A stretch of 5,905 nt of DNA from Anaerolineales bacterium (lineage in GTDB: Bacteria > Chloroflexota > Anaerolineae > Anaerolineales > UBA4823): contig JAFGBV010000030.1 of assembly GCA_016932955.1 (NCBI GenBank), positions 1 to 5,905 of the forward strand, given 5' to 3'. Within the stretch, counting starts at the first letter, position 1. The number at the start of each line of letters is the position of its first letter. This document shows, one piece after another, positions 1-5,905 of this stretch. Below the pieces are notes generated by a model that was not told where the DNA came from, did not search any database, and saw nothing but the letters and a program-made list of their open reading frames with translations. The translations under genes were made by a program, and so were the position numbers.

Positions 1-1385
1 CCCTCGTCAACGATTTGCTGCACTTCCCAATCCAGAAGATGGTAAGGCAGCCTGTGCGGCGGAATGCCGACTCGCATCATGCCGCCCGCCACAGGCAAGC
101 TGTCGAAGACGGTGGCTTTGTGCCCGATGCGCACCAGGTCCAGCCCGGCGGTCAACCCGGCAGGACCAGCGCCGATGATGGCAATTTTCTTGCCGGTGGG
201 GTGAGGATGGTGAGTGAAGGGAGTGCCGATCAACGATTTGTCGTGCATGTTGGGCAGCTCATCACGATGGGCATAAGCCCAATCGGAGACGAAGCGCTTG
301 AGCGCCATGATATTGACCGGCTCATCCACCTTGCTGCGAGTGCAGGCAACTTCGCAAGGGTGGTTGCAGACACGCCCGCAGACGGAGGGGAAAGGATGCT
401 CACGGCGGATCGCCCAATAGGCATCCGCGTAGCGTTTTTCACGGATCAGGGCAATATAGCCCTCCACACGCTGGTCGGTGGGACAGGCAGAGCGGCAGGG
501 TGCCAGGCCGCGTTTCTCGATCACAAAAGCGCCTGGCACAGCCTGGGCAGAGTTTCGATAAGTCGCTTTGCGCTTGCTCAGGCCTACATCGAAGGGATTG
601 ATGACCTCCACAGGGCAGACTTCAGCACATTTTCCACAGCCTGTGCACAGACTCTCGTCAATATAGCGCGCCTTGCGGCGGATACGCACCTGATAGTTTC
701 CCACATAGCCGGTGACGGCTTCGACCTCGCTGTAGCTGAGCAGCTCGATGTTTTGGTGGCGTCCAACGGACACCATTTTCGGGGTAAGAATTCAAGCCGC
801 ACAGTCGAGCGTGGGGAAGGTCTTGTACAACTGGGCCATATGCCCGCCGATGCTCGGCTCGCGTTCGACCAGAAAGACCTTCTTCCCGGCGTCCGCCAGA
901 CGTAAGGCAGCTTCGATGCCGGCAATCCCACCACCGACGATCAAGGCCTCCTGCATCATCTCCACCGGACGCGTGCTGAGCGGCGCATGATAACGCACCC
1001 GGCGGACAGCAGCACTGACCAGGCTACTGGCTTTGCTGGTTGCCTGCTGGCGGTCATCGATGACCCACGAGCAATGCTCACGGATATTGGCCATTTGCAG
1101 GAAGAAGGGGTTCAAGCCGCCTTCCTCCAGCGCCCGGCGGAAGGTAGGCTCATGCATCAGCGGTGAGCAGGAAGCCACGACCACCCGGTTCAAGCCGTGC
1201 TGTTGGATGTCCTGCTTGATCAAATCCTGCCCGGGGTCGGAACACATATACGTGTAATCACGGGCCAAGACCACACCCTCTAAAGTTTGAGCATACTCCG
1301 CTACCGCCTCGACATCGACTTTGCTGGCGATATTGGTGCCGCAGTGACACACATAGACACCCGTGCGCACTTTGGTCAGATTCAT
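1..1385 (-). CDS. HdrA-GltD fusion selenoprotein, 3' end beyond window
   Basis: Putative cytoplasmic iron-sulfur flavoprotein joining an HdrA-type N-terminal half to a GltD/NfnB-like NAD(P)H oxidoreductase. The visible 461 aa show, in order: the HdrA N-terminal domain (CHCGTN, residues ~13-18; MCSDPGQ; ASCSPLMHEPTF); an FAD-binding Rossmann motif GGGIAGIEAA; TLDCAA followed by in-frame TGA (codon 198) and ILTPKM; a ferredoxin motif C247-C250-C253-C257; GltD-type cysteines C297, C301, C336, C340, C344, C348; and a second Rossmann motif IIGAGPAGLTAG at ~403-414. The frame stays open through base 1. ATG at 1385 overlaps the upstream hdrA stop (ATGA) and has GGAGG seven bases before it, so the two are probably translationally coupled. 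The first ~290 aa closely duplicate the neighbouring HdrA, then homology switches to GltD. One Cys pair usual in the first GltD cluster is not seen. The HdrA and GltD family calls are secure. The selenocysteine reading is a strong inference, and the substrate is unknown. Confidence 0.9.
757..775 (-). promoter_or_regulatory. Bacterial SECIS-like hairpin after fusion-gene TGA
   Basis: Same 8-bp stem as in hdrA (UGGUGUCC with GGACGCCA) at the same distance from the UGA, with loop GUU in place of GUC. All synonymous third positions inside the stem are kept. Several codons around it differ between the two genes (ACG/ACC, CCC/CCG and the loop codon GTC/GTT). This is what selection on the RNA hairpin would give, although the sample is small. 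Confidence 0.7.
792..794 (-). other. Selenocysteine codon (in-frame TGA) in HdrA-GltD fusion
   Basis: The codons read GAC TGT GCG GCT TGA ATT CTT ACC CCG AAA ATG, with the same D-C-A-A-stop-I-L-T-P-K-M context as the upstream hdrA. The frame beyond it is open for a further 263 codons to the window edge and encodes ferredoxin and GltD-like motifs. The second, independent occurrence at the homologous codon makes sequencing error or decay very unlikely. Confidence 0.92.
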
Positions 1386-3409
1386 GTGACTACCTCCTCT
1401 TGCTGTGATGGAATCTTCGATGACAGATCCAAAGCTCCAACCATTAACATCCCATCGATCTCAGCAAAAATTTGCTGGTCGGTAAAGCCATTTTGTAGCG
1501 CAGCGCCTGCCGGGCAGGCCGCCACACAAGCCCCACAGCCCTTGCAAAGGACTTCATTGACCTGTGAAACCATCTTGTTATTGATCTCCACCACCTGGAT
1601 AGCGTGATAGGGGCAAAGACCAACGCAGGTGAGGCAGCCACAGCAGCGGGCGGGGTCAATATATGCCGTAAATGGCTCGAGAAAGACATGACCGGCATCC
1701 ATGAGGGAGAGTGCAGCGGCAGCCGCAGCGCCGCCCTGGGCGACACTGTCAGGGATATCTTTAGGTCCCTGGCAGGCGCCTGCCAGGTAAACACCGTCGG
1801 TAGCCGTATCGACGGGGGCAAGCTTGGGATGCTTTTCAAGGAAGAACCCGTCGGGGCTGCGGCTGACGCCAAAGGTGGCTGCCACGTGTTGGGCGTCTGC
1901 CTGGGCTTCCATTCCTGTGCTCAACAAGACCATGTCAACGGGCACCTCATCCAGGTCGCCGGTGTAGACATTAACGGACGAGACGATGAGCTGACCATCC
2001 CGCTGGCTGACCTGGATATCCTCGTCAAAGCGATAAAATTGCACGCCAGACTGGCTGACGCGGGTGTAGAAGCCCTCATAATCCTTGCCAAAGGCGCGCA
2101 TGTCGCGGTAGAACTCGTACACCTCGGCGCCGACGTAGTCGCGGATGAGCTGGGCAATCTTGAGCGAATACATACAGCAGACCCGGGAGCAATATTCGTG
2201 GGTGTCGAGATTGCGGCTGCCGACGCAGTGCAGGATGGCGATCTTTTGCGGGGTACGCCCATCCTTCAGGCGCACCTGACCGGAGGTTGGCCCGCCAGAG
2301 TTGATCATGCGCTCGAGCTCCATGCTGGTGAGCACATTGTCCAGCGTGCCATAGCCATATTGGGGCAGGCGGCGCGGATCAAAATCTTGGAAGCCTGTAG
2401 CCAGAATAATGGTGCCGACTTCCAGCTCGACATAGGTCTCTTTTTGGCTGAAATCGATCGCACCGGTGGGACAGAATTTTTCGCAGGCGCGGCATTTGCC
2501 CTTTTGAAAGTAAGCGCAGTTATCCGTATCAATAACGGGCACGCGCGGCACTGCCTGTGGGAAGGGGAAATAAACGGCAGAACGGTTTCCCAGCCCCATA
2601 TCAAACTCGGAGGGGATCTTCTTCCAGGGACACTTTTCAACGCAGGTACCACAACCGGTGCAGGCATCTTCGTTCACGTAGCGCGGCTTGCGCTTGACCT
2701 GTACGGTGAAATTGCCTACAAAGCCAGAGACAGATTCAACCTCACTGTAGCTGAGCAGCTTGATGTTCGGGTGGCGTCCGACGGACACCATTTTGGGCGT
2801 AAGAATTCAAGCCGCGCAGTCCAGCGTGGGGAAGGTCTTGTACAGACGCGACATGTGCCCGCCGATGCTCGCCTCACGCTCCACCAGGTAGACCTGTTTG
2901 CCAGCATCCGCCATGCGCAGGGCAGCTTCGATTCCAGCAATCCCTCCCCCAACCACCAGGGCTGATTGCTTGACGGGAGCCTGGCGGGAATCCAGCGAAC
3001 CGTGGTAGTGGACACGGTGAACTGCCGCAGAGACCAGGGCCTTAGCTTTCTGGGTCGCCATGCTGCGGTCCTCAGACACCCAGGCACAATGCTCGCGGAT
3101 GTTGGTCATCTGGAACAGGAAGGGATTGAGACCCGCTTCAGCGCAGGCACGGCGGAAAGTGGGCTCGTGCATCAGCGGAGAGCAAGAGGCTACGACGACA
3201 CGATCCAGGCCCTCTTCGCGGATATCTTCCTTGATGAGGGCCTGACCAGGGTCTGAGCACATGTAGGCATAATTGCGAGCCAGCACAACACCGTCCAGTT
3301 GAGCAGCGTAATCTGTCACAGCCTGCACGTCAACCATAGCTGCAATGTTGGTCCCGCAATGACAAACGTAAACGCCAATGCGGGGACTACCTCTGGAATT
3401 TGATCTCAT
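1382..3409 (-). CDS. hdrA: HdrA, heterodisulfide reductase subunit A-like selenoprotein
   Basis: Full-length HdrA-type protein (675 aa with the TGA read through; HdrA is usually about 650-680 aa). HdrA is the FAD-bearing, electron-bifurcating hub of cytoplasmic HdrABC complexes, passing electrons between low-potential ferredoxin, an electron donor module and HdrBC. Seen in order: N-terminal CHCGTN (C16, C18), MCSDPGQ and ASCSPLMHEPTF; FAD-binding GGGIAGIEAA; DCAA, in-frame TGA at codon 201, then ILTPKM; ferredoxin motif C250-x2-C-x2-C-x3-CP; a second Cys group (CRACEKFCP); GFQDFDP and HCVGSRN/CSRVCCMYSLK; GVYLAGACQGPKDIPDSV for FAD; and two C-terminal ferredoxin motifs (~589-599 and ~622-632). 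The start is set at ATG 3409, with GGAGG eight bases upstream; a TTG five codons earlier would lie across that site. The stop overlaps the next gene's start. A conventional caller would report pieces 2807-3424 and 1382-2791. HdrB and HdrC are not in the window, so the oxidised substrate is unknown and need not be CoM-S-S-CoB. Confidence 0.93.
1393..1397 (-). promoter_or_regulatory. Ribosome binding site of fusion gene
   Basis: GGAGG (within GAGGAGGTA) lies seven bases before ATG 1385, inside the last codons of hdrA. The stop and start codons share four bases (ATGA, 1382-1385). This supports re-initiation or coupled translation of the two HdrA proteins. Confidence 0.85.
2772..2790 (-). promoter_or_regulatory. 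Bacterial SECIS-like hairpin after hdrA TGA
   Basis: In the mRNA, UGGUGUCC pairs with GGACGCCA in 8 bp (one U-G wobble), closing a GUC loop. The loop begins 25 nt after the UGA (24 nt between). Bacterial SECIS elements lie within the coding region just downstream of UGA and typically have a small apical loop with G at its first positions, often GU, which SelB recognises. This hairpin fits those rules as I remember them. Folding was done by eye, with no energy computed. Confidence 0.7.
2807..2809 (-). other. Selenocysteine codon (in-frame TGA) in hdrA
   Basis: The codons read GAC TGC GCG GCT TGA ATT CTT ACG CCC AAA ATG, that is D-C-A-A-stop-I-L-T-P-K-M. HdrA proteins normally have Cys at the TGA position, and the downstream 474 aa continue the HdrA fold in the same frame with no shift. 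HdrA is a known selenoprotein in methanococci and some bacteria, with Sec at this motif. Sec is therefore the best reading. A nonsense mutation is unlikely because the neighbouring paralogue has TGA at the same codon. Confidence 0.92.
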
Positions 3410-3417
3410 TCGTTGAA

Positions 3418-3422
3418 CCTCC
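3418..3422 (-). promoter_or_regulatory. Ribosome binding site of hdrA, decides start
   Basis: GGAGG with an eight-base spacer to ATG 3407-3409. This favours the ATG over the in-frame TTG at 3424, whose use would place the site inside the coding region. Confidence 0.85.
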
Positions 3423-3448
3423 AATTTTCCACCTGATCTCCTCGATGT

Positions 3449-3466
3449 TTGTTAAAAAAAGCACAA
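3449..3466. promoter_or_regulatory. Candidate Rex-like operator upstream of hdrA
   Basis: The 18 bases TTGTTAA-AAAA-AGCACAA form an imperfect dyad. They match the recalled Rex consensus (TTGTTAA/TTGTGAA, 4 bases, mirrored) perfectly in the left half and at the outer ACAA of the right half. Rex senses NADH/NAD+ and often controls anaerobic energy genes, which would suit this locus. The A-rich setting makes a chance match likely, and no clear -10/-35 promoter was found beside it. Confidence 0.25.
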
Positions 3467-3475
3467 CTCGAAGGT

Positions 3476-3504
3476 AAAAAAAATTCCTGCACGAATACTT
3501 CTGC
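3476..3504 (-). terminator. Weak terminator-like stem plus T8
   Basis: Just after the TAA at 3514, GCAGAA pairs with TTC-G-TGC (six pairs, one bulge, GTA loop), and five bases later comes a run of eight T (3483-3476 on the minus strand). The stem is short and AT-rich in part, so termination would be inefficient at best. Together with the site at 3449-3466 it hints at a transcription boundary before hdrA. Confidence 0.25.
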
Positions 3505-3513
3505 CTGCCCCAC

Positions 3514-4893
3514 TTAACTGAGATAGGCATCAATTGTATACGCAGCTTTCCTGCCGGCAAGCATAGCATTCACCACCATATCAGGACCGGTAACAATGTC
3601 GCCGCCAGTGTAAACACCAAAGCGGCTGGTGGCGCCAGTGGCGGGGTCGCCTACGACCAGGCCCCATTTATGGGTCAGGAGGCCAGGGGTGGTGGCGCTG
3701 ACAATTGGATCGGGGTAATAACCTGCTGCGACGATCACGGTATCGGCGCGGATATGAAACTCAGTTCCTTCGACAGGGTGTGGGTGGCGAGCGCCTTCAC
3801 TATCGGGCTCGCCGATCTCGACATGCACACAGTCCACGCCCGCCACATGGCCTTTCTCACCTGCGGTCAGGCGCTGCGGGATGGTCAGGTAGCGGAACTC
3901 AACGCCTTCTTCTTCAGCCCATTGCCGGTCATGACCGCGCCCCGGAATCTCCTGCGCGGTATAGCGGTAGAGGCAGGTGACGTTGCGAGCGCCCAGACGG
4001 ATGGCAGTGCGTGCGCAGTCGGTAGCGGGGTCACCGCCGCCGATGACGACCACACGGTCGCCGATTTCGGGGAAAACTCGCTGGCGGGTGGTAAGATTCT
4101 TCTTCTCTACATTCGTGCGAACCAGAAAATCGGTGGCAAAGTAAACGCCAGGCAGCTTCTCACCGGGGATGTCGAGAGGCTGGTCGATACCACTGCCCAT
4201 ACCCAGGAAGATCGATTCAAAGCCCTGGGCGAAGAGATCGTTAACGGTTGTTTTCTTTCCGATGGTCGTATGAGGGACAAAGGTGACCCCGGCCTCCAGA
4301 ATGCTTTTGATAATATCAGTCACAAGGTGGCGAGGCAGTTTAAAAGAGGGGAAGCCGTAAGTCAAAGCTCCTCCCAGGGCTGCATGGTTGTCGAAGATGG
4401 TGACCCAATGACCCATACGCGCCAATTGCTCAGCGCAGGCCAATCCACTGGGGCCACCACCCACAATAGCAACCTTGCATCCGGTTGGTGGTGGGACAGG
4501 GATGTGGTAACCAACGGTACGGCGCTCGTACTCGGTGACAAAGGCTTCCAGAGCGCCGGTTGGCACCGGGTCGCCGCGGCGGTTGCGCACGCAGGCGCCT
4601 TCACACAGCTTTTCCTGCGGACAGACACGCCCGCAAATTTCCGGGAAAGTGGTCGTTTTGCGGTAGACTTGTGCAGCTTCGAGAAATTTTCCCTGCTCGA
4701 TATACAGCATTGCCTGGGAAATATCATTGCCTGCCGGGCAGGCTTGCTGGCAGGCAGGGCGATTATAGCAATGGAGGCAGCGGGAAGCTTCGTATCTAGC
4801 CCATTTCTCATCCCCCAAAAAGATTGTTTCATTAAAGTCGCCTACGCGCTCAATCACAGGCCGCACGAGCAACCCCTGCGACTTCAAGCGCAT
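3514..4893 (-). CDS. GltD/NfnB-like FAD-dependent NAD(P)H oxidoreductase
   Basis: Member of the glutamate synthase small subunit / NfnB family: soluble flavoproteins that take electrons from or give them to NAD(P)H and pass them through FAD to [4Fe-4S] clusters. The 459 aa from ATG 4893 show eight cysteines for two N-terminal clusters (C39, C42, C48, C52; C87, C91, C97, C101), FAD motif VGGGPSGLACAEQLA (~144-158) followed by GGALTYGFPSFKLP, NAD(P)-binding IGGGDPATDC (~284-293) and a C-terminal FAD motif TGGDIVTGPDMVVNAMLAGRKAA. With no GltB-type large subunit visible and HdrA genes just downstream, its partner is more likely an Hdr-type complex than glutamate synthase; this is inference. The NAD(P)-specificity region reads LYRY where the family usually has YRR. 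The start is uncertain: the frame is open upstream to 4941, the added residues include an IDRKARM stretch that resembles the N-terminus of relatives from memory, and the best ribosome site (4947-4951) precedes an ATT at 4939-4941. ATG 4893 has only a weak TAAGG. Stop is TAA. Confidence 0.92.
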   Translation of the reverse strand: MRLKSQGLLVRPVIERVGDFNETIFLGDEKWARYEASRCLHCYNRPACQQACPAGNDISQAMLYIEQGKFLEAAQVYRKTTTFPEICGRVCPQEKLCEGACVRNRRGDPVPTGALEAFVTEYERRTVGYHIPVPPPTGCKVAIVGGGPSGLACAEQLARMGHWVTIFDNHAALGGALTYGFPSFKLPRHLVTDIIKSILEAGVTFVPHTTIGKKTTVNDLFAQGFESIFLGMGSGIDQPLDIPGEKLPGVYFATDFLVRTNVEKKNLTTRQRVFPEIGDRVVVIGGGDPATDCARTAIRLGARNVTCLYRYTAQEIPGRGHDRQWAEEEGVEFRYLTIPQRLTAGEKGHVAGVDCVHVEIGEPDSEGARHPHPVEGTEFHIRADTVIVAAGYYPDPIVSATTPGLLTHKWGLVVGDPATGATSRFGVYTGGDIVTGPDMVVNAMLAGRKAAYTIDAYLS

Positions 4894-4946
4894 GCGCGCC
4901 TTACGGTCAATCTGCAGTGCACCACCCGCTTGCTCTGTAATTCAAA

Positions 4947-4951
4947 CCTCC
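4947..4951 (-). promoter_or_regulatory. Strong ribosome site lacking a standard in-frame start
   Basis: GGAGG is followed after five bases by ATT (4939-4941), which is in frame with the gene at 3514-4893 and directly follows an in-frame TGA. No ATG, GTG or TTG in that frame lies between here and ATG 4893. The site is therefore either used with an ATT start, as E. coli infC uses AUU, or is not used. Confidence 0.5.
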
Positions 4952-4978
4952 GCTTAACAAAAAGCTGCCTAAAATGGT

Positions 4979-5006
4979 ATGGGCGATCCCAGGCAGGGTC
5001 GCCCAT
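4979..5006 (-). terminator. Intercistronic hairpin, possible weak terminator
   Basis: A perfect 8-bp inverted repeat (ATGGGCGA / TCGCCCAT) is extended inward by CCC/GGG around a TGCCT loop with one bulged base. It lies 40 bases after the TAA of the 5046 gene and before the next ribosome site. On the minus strand it is followed by ACCATTTTAGG, not an unbroken T-tract, so it is a poor intrinsic terminator. It may instead be an RNA-stabilising or attenuating hairpin within an operon. The structure is clear; the role is not. Confidence 0.45.
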
Positions 5007-5045
5007 CTCCGCTAACAGCAACGATGCAGTAAGAACGGCAACCGG

Positions 5046-5905
5046 TTACTTATTTTGTTTCAGATACTCATCGATCCCCGCGGCAGCCTTGCGGCCTGCC
5101 ACGCTCGCAGTGACTACCAGGTCAGGGCCGGTGACGCCATCGCCGCCGGCAAACACACCCGGGCGGGAGGTGGCACCTGTTTTGGGATCCGTGATGATCA
5201 AGCCATACTTGTGCGTCTTCAAGTCGGGAGTGGTCTCGCCAATGACCGGGTCAGGCCAGTAGCCCAAAGCCAGGACAGCGCTGTCGGCGTCGACGATGAA
5301 GTTCGAGCCTTCGATTGGGACGGGGCGGCGGCGGCCTTTGGCATCTGGCTCGCCCAATTCCATCTTGATGCACTCCACCTGCGCCAGGTGCCCTTGCTCG
5401 TTGGCAATGAAGCGCACCGGCTGGGTGAGGAACTGATAGTGGGCGCCTTCTTCCAGGGCAAGCTCGCGGTCTTTGACACCACCGGGCATTTCTTTGATCG
5501 TGCGGCGATAGAGGCAGGTGACTTCGGTGGCACCGAAGCGCAAAGCAGTGCGCAGGCAGTCGGAGGCGGTGTCACCGCCGCCGATCACGACCACGTTCTT
5601 GCCGATCTCAGGGCGGGAGCGCCAATGCTCAGGAAGCAGCTCCAGGGCGACATTACAACGCGCCAGGAATTCGGTGGCTTTGAAGACGCCGGGCAGGTCC
5701 TCGCCGGGCACTTCCATCGGGGCATCCACTTCAGAACCAACGCCCACGAAAACAGCCTCAAATCCCTCAGTAAAGAGATCATCAATGGTTTTGTCTTTGC
5801 CGATATAGGTATTGTAGACGAATTCCGCACCGGCATCTTCCATGTCACCCACGCGGCAGAAGACGATCTCCTTGGGAATCTTGAAGGGAGGAATGCCATA
5901 AACCA
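5046..5905 (-). CDS. GltD/NfnB-like oxidoreductase, 5' end beyond window
   Basis: C-terminal 285 aa of a second GltD/NfnB-family flavoprotein. The frame is open to the window edge. The first visible residues, VYGIPPFKIPKEIV, match the segment that normally follows the FAD-binding Rossmann fold, so the GTG near 5852 is internal and not the start. Visible parts are the middle region (VGVGSEVDAPMEVPGEDLPG), NAD(P)-binding VVVIGGGDTASDCLRTA (~104-120 of the partial protein), YRRTIKEMPGG with the double Arg that in this family sits near the NADPH 2'-phosphate, and C-terminal FAD-binding FAGGDGVTGPDLVVTASVAGRKAA. It is clearly paralogous to the next gene downstream, domain for domain. Stop is TAA. 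About 150 bases separate it from ATG 4893, and that gap holds a strong hairpin. The presumed role is NAD(P)H-linked electron input or output for the Hdr-type system. A true glutamate synthase small subunit is possible but not favoured by the neighbours. Confidence 0.92.
   Translation of the reverse strand, partial: VYGIPPFKIPKEIVFCRVGDMEDAGAEFVYNTYIGKDKTIDDLFTEGFEAVFVGVGSEVDAPMEVPGEDLPGVFKATEFLARCNVALELLPEHWRSRPEIGKNVVVIGGGDTASDCLRTALRFGATEVTCLYRRTIKEMPGGVKDRELALEEGAHYQFLTQPVRFIANEQGHLAQVECIKMELGEPDAKGRRRPVPIEGSNFIVDADSAVLALGYWPDPVIGETTPDLKTHKYGLIITDPKTGATSRPGVFAGGDGVTGPDLVVTASVAGRKAAAGIDEYLKQNK

Follow-up and report, generated by a model that had tools for sequence, protein, structure and literature searches.

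Can two neighbouring genes that are each interrupted by a UGA at the same codon encode a pair of selenoproteins, and would the two products then work in one enzyme? The question is raised by a 5,905-nucleotide stretch of DNA from an Anaerolineales bacterium (assembly GCA_016932955.1, contig JAFGBV010000030.1, positions 1 to 5,905; the window, below), whose minus strand carries hdrA, encoding a flavin and iron-sulfur protein of the HdrA type, and directly behind it hdrL, in which an HdrA-like part is fused to a GltD-like part. The name HdrL is taken from PMC2702500, and the same architecture is called type III HdrA in PMC12054007 (here and below, published work is cited for the accessible portions of each text). 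We conclude, at a probability of roughly 0.85, that hdrA and hdrL are two overlapping selenocysteine (Sec) genes whose products make up the flavin core of a bifurcating complex that is of the HdrA type and linked to NAD(H). The features on which this conclusion turns are the following.

1382..3409, minus strand: hdrA, HdrA-type flavin/iron-sulfur protein of 675 amino acids with Sec at residue 201, from the reading frame, profiles and alignment to 5odc_A.
2807..2809, minus strand: in-frame UGA of hdrA, read as Sec and aligned to Cys197 of 5odc_A.
2772..2790, minus strand: hairpin of hdrA resembling a bacterial selenocysteine insertion sequence (SECIS), 8 base pairs, loop GUC, starting 16 bases past the UGA.
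3..1385, minus strand: 5' part of hdrL, at least 461 amino acids, leaving the window; an HdrA N-terminal half leads into a GltD-like NAD(P)H domain, with Sec at residue 198.
792..794, minus strand: in-frame UGA of hdrL, read as Sec; the codon was read directly.
757..775, minus strand: bacterial SECIS-like hairpin of hdrL, 8 base pairs, loop GUU, starting 16 bases past the UGA.
1382..1385, minus strand: ATGA overlap placing the hdrL start codon on the hdrA stop, with GGAGG at 1393-1397.

Each gene contains one internal in-frame UGA (2809-2807 in hdrA and 794-792 in hdrL), both within DCAA-U-ILTPKM; on the plus strand TCA stands at 2807-2809 and 792-794, where a preliminary description of this DNA had placed the two TGA codons in that same context. 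The interval of 792..2809 that it assigned to the pair is right in the positions of the UGAs, but the genes reach further, hdrA starting at 3409 and hdrL running off the window at base 3. Its statement that homology continues in frame was borne out in both cases. Residues 13-660 of the hdrA product align to residues 3-650 of the solved HdrA chain 5odc_A (E 1.6e-221), spanning the UGA, and in profile searches the hdrL product gives a match to the HdrA model NF040770 (7-304) and, from about 290 onward, to GltD-type models, so that the second gene is a fusion, as had also been claimed. For hdrA the better start is the ATG at 3409, preceded by GGAGG at 3418-3422, which gives 675 amino acids; a database copy of its N-terminal piece (P0003) begins at the same Met. 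The alternative TTG at 3424 would give 680 amino acids and place the UGA at residue 206. The 4-base overlap with hdrL occurs in the window and in 8 of the 11 relatives' pairs examined, the other junctions being an 8-base one in L003 and, in L002 and L022 respectively, spacers of 38 and 92 bases; the two genes are probably translationally coupled. Where a relative has an unbroken hdrL that begins and ends on its contig, the gene encodes 1132-1158 amino acids, and 1166 and 1214 in L011 and L002, where an earlier start was picked automatically.

Relatives were collected by scanning genome contigs, which yielded 34 loci, 21 of them from Chloroflexi and mostly Anaerolineales, the best being 75% identical. 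The codon at the UGA site was read in 24 of these loci, in three further genome pieces and in the window. It is TGA in 29 copies (27 plus the window's two) and TGC or TGT in 13, with one L031 row (5624), which has Val at the site, excluded from both counts; an in-frame UGA thereby stands where homologues carry Cys, as in bacterial selenoproteins, and the comparison with Cys and Sec homologues suggested in the preliminary description comes out in favor of Sec. Ten loci lie outside the codon set (L018-L021, L024, L025, L027, L029, L032, and L034), of which eight have Cys and two, L024 and L032, were unmatched by the motif. A third copy of G169 (L091), likewise outside the 29, reads TGA and has 8 of 8 stem pairs. 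All Sec/Cys states were taken from the sequence at the codon itself; a lone in-frame TGA within a genome-search match was dropped as a sign of Sec, L092 and L094 having Cys at the site. The Ile codon directly after the UGA (789-791 and 2804-2806 in the window) reads ATA 22 times and ATT 7 times among the 29 copies and never ATC, compared with Ile fractions of 0.05 for ATA and 0.66 for ATC elsewhere in the same genes and with ATC in 8 and ATT in 5 of the 13 Cys copies. This preference for ATA or ATT may act as 3' context when the UGA is decoded.

Every TGA copy is followed, 16 bases on, by the sequence TGGYGTCC-GTN-GGACGCCA, with CGG at its front in the first copy of L011. The stem is complete, with 8 pairs, in 28 of the 29 UGA copies (that L011 copy has 7) and in none of the 13 Cys copies, which form 4 to 7 pairs. 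The codons that build the stem are close to fixed in the UGA copies, and their frequencies elsewhere in these genes are lower: GGA in 29/29 (0.13 of Gly codons elsewhere), TCC in 29/29 (0.25), CGC in 29/29 (0.46), and GTG in 28/29 (0.36), all of these counts coming from copies that share ancestry and are not independent trials. The third loop base is free (T in 14, C in 5, and G in 10), and a Cys copy in L005 (12565) encodes the same peptide, MVSVGRH, by other codons and without a complete stem. The fixed stem set against the free loop base, together with the Cys control, points to selection acting on the RNA. SelD served as a positive control: its gene contains a UGA in all 16 relatives from which it was taken, and 15 of the 16 have a GUN-loop hairpin in the best fold.

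The machinery for Sec insertion is present in most of the relatives searched. SelB scores above its cut-off in 16 of the 20 genomes behind the loci, and tRNA-Sec reaches at least 59 bits in 17 of 20 and exceeds the gathering score in 18, the extra one being G004 at 47.7 bits. SelA is above cut-off in 17 of 18 genomes and SelD in 16 of 18, the best SelD match in each of the 16 holding one TGA. Among 14 control genomes the corresponding numbers above cut-offs are 2 for SelB, 5 for tRNA-Sec, 1 for SelA, and 2 for SelD. A tRNA scan of the window itself found none. Because a hairpin with fixed codons follows both UGAs, because homologues have Cys at the site, and because SelA, SelB, SelD, and tRNA-Sec occur in most relatives searched, we regard it as very likely that both UGAs are decoded as Sec in this organism, as the preliminary description had proposed.

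What, then, would the two selenoproteins do? The hdrA product shows full-length homology to HdrA of the 5odc_A type, including the N-terminal cluster domain, the FAD domain, and two ferredoxin domains, and its UGA corresponds to Cys197 of methanogen HdrA (number counted from the 5odc_A alignment); another solved chain, 9sfi_A, shows X at the equivalent site, which is presumably Sec, and entry 9t1s likewise has X there. Among alignment rows with a letter at the respective position, the N-terminal cysteines are kept almost throughout (C21 in 39/40, C23 in 40/40, C56 in 40/40, and C81 in 39/40), the exception at C21 and C81 being a broken L003 copy. E371 and K422 are present in 36/36 and 35/35 of the rows that reach them, including window hdrA, while window hdrL ends before their equivalents. 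By alignment these residues correspond to E356 and K409, a pair linked to bifurcation (PMC12054007), so that window hdrA carries the flavin bifurcation residues. Against the NCBIfam model NF040770 (HdrA2), window hdrA scores 828.7 bits, under the curated cut-off of 1100, and is therefore described here as HdrA-like rather than as a member of that family; its match stops at 641 of 777 model positions, and a separate MvhD-type protein of L012 matches positions 644-774.

In the window, the HdrA part of hdrL passes into a GltD part that is then cut by the window edge, and the HdrL proteins of L012 and L004 have both the GltD-type and C-terminal ferredoxin domains. Behind hdrL in L012 lie genes for an MvhD-type protein, an AsrA/HydB-type iron-sulfur protein, and an AsrB/HydG-type NAD-binding protein, the latter two scoring below the curated cut-offs of their models; similar downstream gene starts were seen by eye in other loci. 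Anaerobes have FlxABCD-HdrABC systems, in which HdrA is combined with modules of the MvhD type and modules linked to NAD(P)H, as in the present relatives. The present loci differ from them in having two HdrA-type genes, one of them fused to GltD, and in that none of the three downstream genes profiled, in L012 only, contains an HdrB-type (CCG) domain. The designation FlxABCD-HdrABC appears in PMC6687939. The L012 MvhD-type protein (15512-16993) is also extended at length on its C-terminal side, and the end of this extension matches the C-terminal region of F420-type formate dehydrogenase beta subunits (8rvu_E, E 5e-20).

Upstream of hdrA, two further genes complete the minus-strand order of the window (gltD-like 5903-5046, gltD-like 4893-3514, hdrA 3409-1382, hdrL from 1385 to beyond 3).

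3514..4893, minus strand: gltD-like NAD(P)H/FAD oxidoreductase of 459 amino acids, upstream of hdrA on the same strand; context, and a putative member of the same unit.
5046..5903, minus strand: 3' part of a gltD-like gene, 54% identical to the neighbouring gltD-like gene; context.

Searched against the 34 loci at E <=1e-30, these two genes matched nothing beyond the GltD parts of HdrL (30-31%) and one place in L031 (38-42%).

In the mechanism that we propose, SelB would decode each UGA as Sec, guided by the hairpin 16 bases downstream, and HdrA and HdrL would together provide the flavin-binding core of a complex of the HdrA type, linked to NAD(H), that bifurcates or confurcates electrons. In each subunit, Sec would probably take the ligand role of HdrA Cys197, which in the solved methanogen complex is reported to ligate the N-terminal cluster belonging to the opposite HdrA of the dimer (PMC9012536). 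That the proteins belong to a bifurcating complex we consider likely. An HdrA/HdrL heterodimer with exchanged Sec ligands is a more tentative proposal that we would place on the doubtful side, and the same holds for a reciprocal selenolate exchange that would tune both electron paths in a double bifurcating unit.

The state of the two genes within each genome bears directly on this proposal. Both codons are readable in 14 loci or genomes, of which 11 are Sec/Sec (the window, L002, L003, L006, L008, L009, L011, L012, L022, G133, and G169), 3 are Cys/Cys (L004, L005, and L010), and none is mixed; L001, L007, L015, L023, L026, and L030 have no readable partner and fall outside this count. A two-Sec hdrA/hdrL pair is thus usual within the lineage, and the suggestion that it is uncommon does not hold there. 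Two genomes have HdrL-HdrA-HdrL triples with a UGA in each gene, L003 (6984, 10589, and 12522) and G169 (L091 11241, 7569, and 5587). When 120 genomes from the family of G003 were searched at the protein level, 69 gave matches; an orthologue of at least 71% identity is present in 13, of which 10 have Sec and 3 Cys at the codon, and a more distant homologue (53-57%) in 67 of the 69. Across 151 genomes of the order, the strict pattern of UGA plus hairpin occurred in 4, and the reversed control gave no hit. Outside Chloroflexota, 78 of 148 genomes from the phylum of G260 (locus L032, Desulfobacca) matched; 30 loci were taken from these, and the codon was read in the 24 that the motif matched, with Cys in 23 and TGA in one (L119). 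The UGA copy of L119 (2101) has an unlike hairpin, GGAUGCC-GGUC-GGCAUCC, in the same place.

In a tree of 40 rows, the HdrL copies form one group (support 99/98) and the HdrA copies another (83/91, less sure), and the Cys copies of L004, L005, and L010 nest within both. L031 and L033 are absent from this tree, L003_12522 has out-of-frame residues upstream of a break and hence a long branch, and L003_6984 is without its N-terminal part. Three state changes are required, at least two of them forced by well-supported branches. The simplest reading is that Sec predates the split between HdrA and HdrL in this group and that both genes switched to Cys in one lineage. The three Cys/Cys genomes (G004, G005, and G010) retain SelA, SelB, and a SelD with UGA; selenium has therefore not been dropped altogether.

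The strongest competing explanation accepts both UGAs as Sec codons but places HdrA and HdrL in separate homodimers or complexes, their shared state reflecting ancestry and a lineage-wide change in selenium economy. Each protein retains its own N-terminal cysteines and its own Sec or Cys, so that homodimers like that of the methanogen complex (PMC9012536) would be possible; the matched Sec/Cys state rests on one joint change; and the triples of L003 and G169 are unexpected under a strict one-to-one pair. The adjacency of the genes, mostly with a 4-base overlap, argues against separate complexes, and the retained selenium machinery of the Cys/Cys genomes argues against a change in selenium economy. 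We give this explanation somewhat less than an even chance.

Several further points weigh against the conclusion that hdrA and hdrL encode the Sec-containing core of one complex, the basis of which is DNA and sequence comparison. The matched state amounts to one joint change plus shared retention, because the three Cys/Cys genomes cluster in the tree, in which, moreover, the HdrA group is only modestly supported and the drawn root is the midpoint. In two L003 HdrL copies a frame break removes one N-terminal cysteine region: the same break, at 6452-6658 / 6657-7262 and 11995-12192 / 12192-12800, costs about 20 residues around VVVASCSP, and may be a real deletion, a conversion between copies, or an assembly fault. 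The lack of an HdrB-type domain in the three downstream genes profiled in L012 counts here as well. The hairpins are nearly invariant in copies that share ancestry and show little covariation (one U-G to C-G change in L030 and one broken outer pair in L011); because the stem varies so little, codon fixation and the Cys control were used in place of covariation. An Rfam search of the window found no SECIS-type family up to E 5, and no dedicated SECIS program was applied; three sub-threshold Rfam matches (two lncRNA families and one snoRNA family) were taken as chance. Finally, the machinery was found in genomes of relatives rather than in the window's own, and these are metagenome-assembled genomes, possibly incomplete. 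SelB is below cut-off in G006 (split over two contigs), G007, G009, and G019; tRNA-Sec is weak in G004 (47.7 bits against a gathering score of 47), G009, and G018; G019 has only a SelA fragment; and neither G009 nor G019 has SelD above cut-off.

Could the UGAs instead be true stops, the N- and C-terminal halves being translated separately with a restart at the ATG six codons past the UGA? In both window genes this ATG does open the frame of the C-terminal half, and the N-terminal pieces are recorded as proteins in databases. The break, however, falls inside the conserved CxxC/U motif, the Cys orthologues are unbroken, the ATG overlaps a stem with codon fixation confined to UGA copies, and in one L011 copy it is ACG. 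On the fixed hairpin codons and the intact Cys orthologues we reject split genes, which we consider very improbable. The database pieces are better seen as a product of annotation, which, as had been predicted, breaks these genes at the UGA: at least 8000 relatives were scored for the N-terminal piece, and each of the best 120 ends in DCAA. That search admits only proteins near the query length and favors fragments; because of this restriction, the count shows such fragments to be plentiful and says nothing against the existence of full-length records.

A genome-wide reassignment of UGA to an amino acid would also leave the frame open, TGA being read as a residue, and is more improbable still. 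It is rejected because hdrA itself ends in UGA (1384-1382), where homology stops and hdrL starts; in addition, the aligned residue in homologues is Cys, and many open reading frames in the relatives' loci terminate in TGA. An assembly or sequencing error, conceivable for an assembled sequence considered without raw reads, has a negligible chance given that other assemblies contribute 27 more UGA copies at this codon and that the 120 listed database pieces all end there.

Much of what makes up this locus has precedents. Sec-HdrA is an established selenoprotein family in methanogens, Deltaproteobacteria, and Clostridia (PMC1794560, PMC13188914), with the CxxU motif in HdrA as in the window genes (PMC13188914). 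Syntrophobacter fumaroxidans has seven Sec-HdrA proteins, and bacterial operons there cluster hdrA-hdrA, comparable to the window tandem, but they carry frhD-frhG-frhA (and glpC), unlike the window pair (PMC1794560); a two-Sec hdrA tandem may already have been shown in print for Deltaproteobacteria. HdrL of Desulfobacterium autotrophicum HRM2 is likewise an Hdr/glutamate-synthase fusion, with Sec in hdrL1 and hdrL3, mvhD alongside, NADH as the proposed donor, and one tandem hdrL/hdrA locus (VIII), whose partner appears to be hdrA4, outside the Sec list of hdrA1, hdrA2, hdrL1, and hdrL3, whereas both window genes have the UGA (PMC2702500). Type III HdrA shares with the hdrL group a GltD inserted in HdrA, the kept E356/K409 pair, and NADH as proposed carrier, but comprises nine sequences from methane-metabolizing archaea, and the accessible text does not mention Sec (PMC12054007). 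The tandem HdrA genes of ANME are adjacent as in the window, and their products are proposed to form a heterodimer through Cys197; they show complementary loss of the N-terminal domain or Cys197, whereas the window copies keep both, with Sec for Cys197 (PMC9012536).

Sec-HdrA, Sec-HdrL, a tandem hdrL/hdrA locus, and clustered hdrA-hdrA are therefore already in print (PMC2702500, PMC1794560), which also counts against calling the arrangement uncommon. The term 'Chloroflex' is absent from the accessible text of PMC13188914, and the literature within reach, from which most subscription papers are missing, describes no two-Sec HdrA/HdrL pair in Chloroflexi. The Anaerolineales two-Sec HdrA/HdrL pair with its matched Sec/Cys state seems to be new.

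Because gene callers cut at the UGA, many HdrA and HdrL genes of uncultured Anaerolineales are probably stored as fragments, which obscures the energy metabolism of these organisms. If our conclusion is correct, two subunits of one complex need selenium at one equivalent site, and the lineage offers a natural test of the role of Sec at an iron-sulfur ligand position in flavin-based bifurcation, with the Cys/Cys lineage (L004, L005, and L010) as a ready comparison. The matched pair suggests a testable hypothesis for a possible mutual dependence of two subunits.

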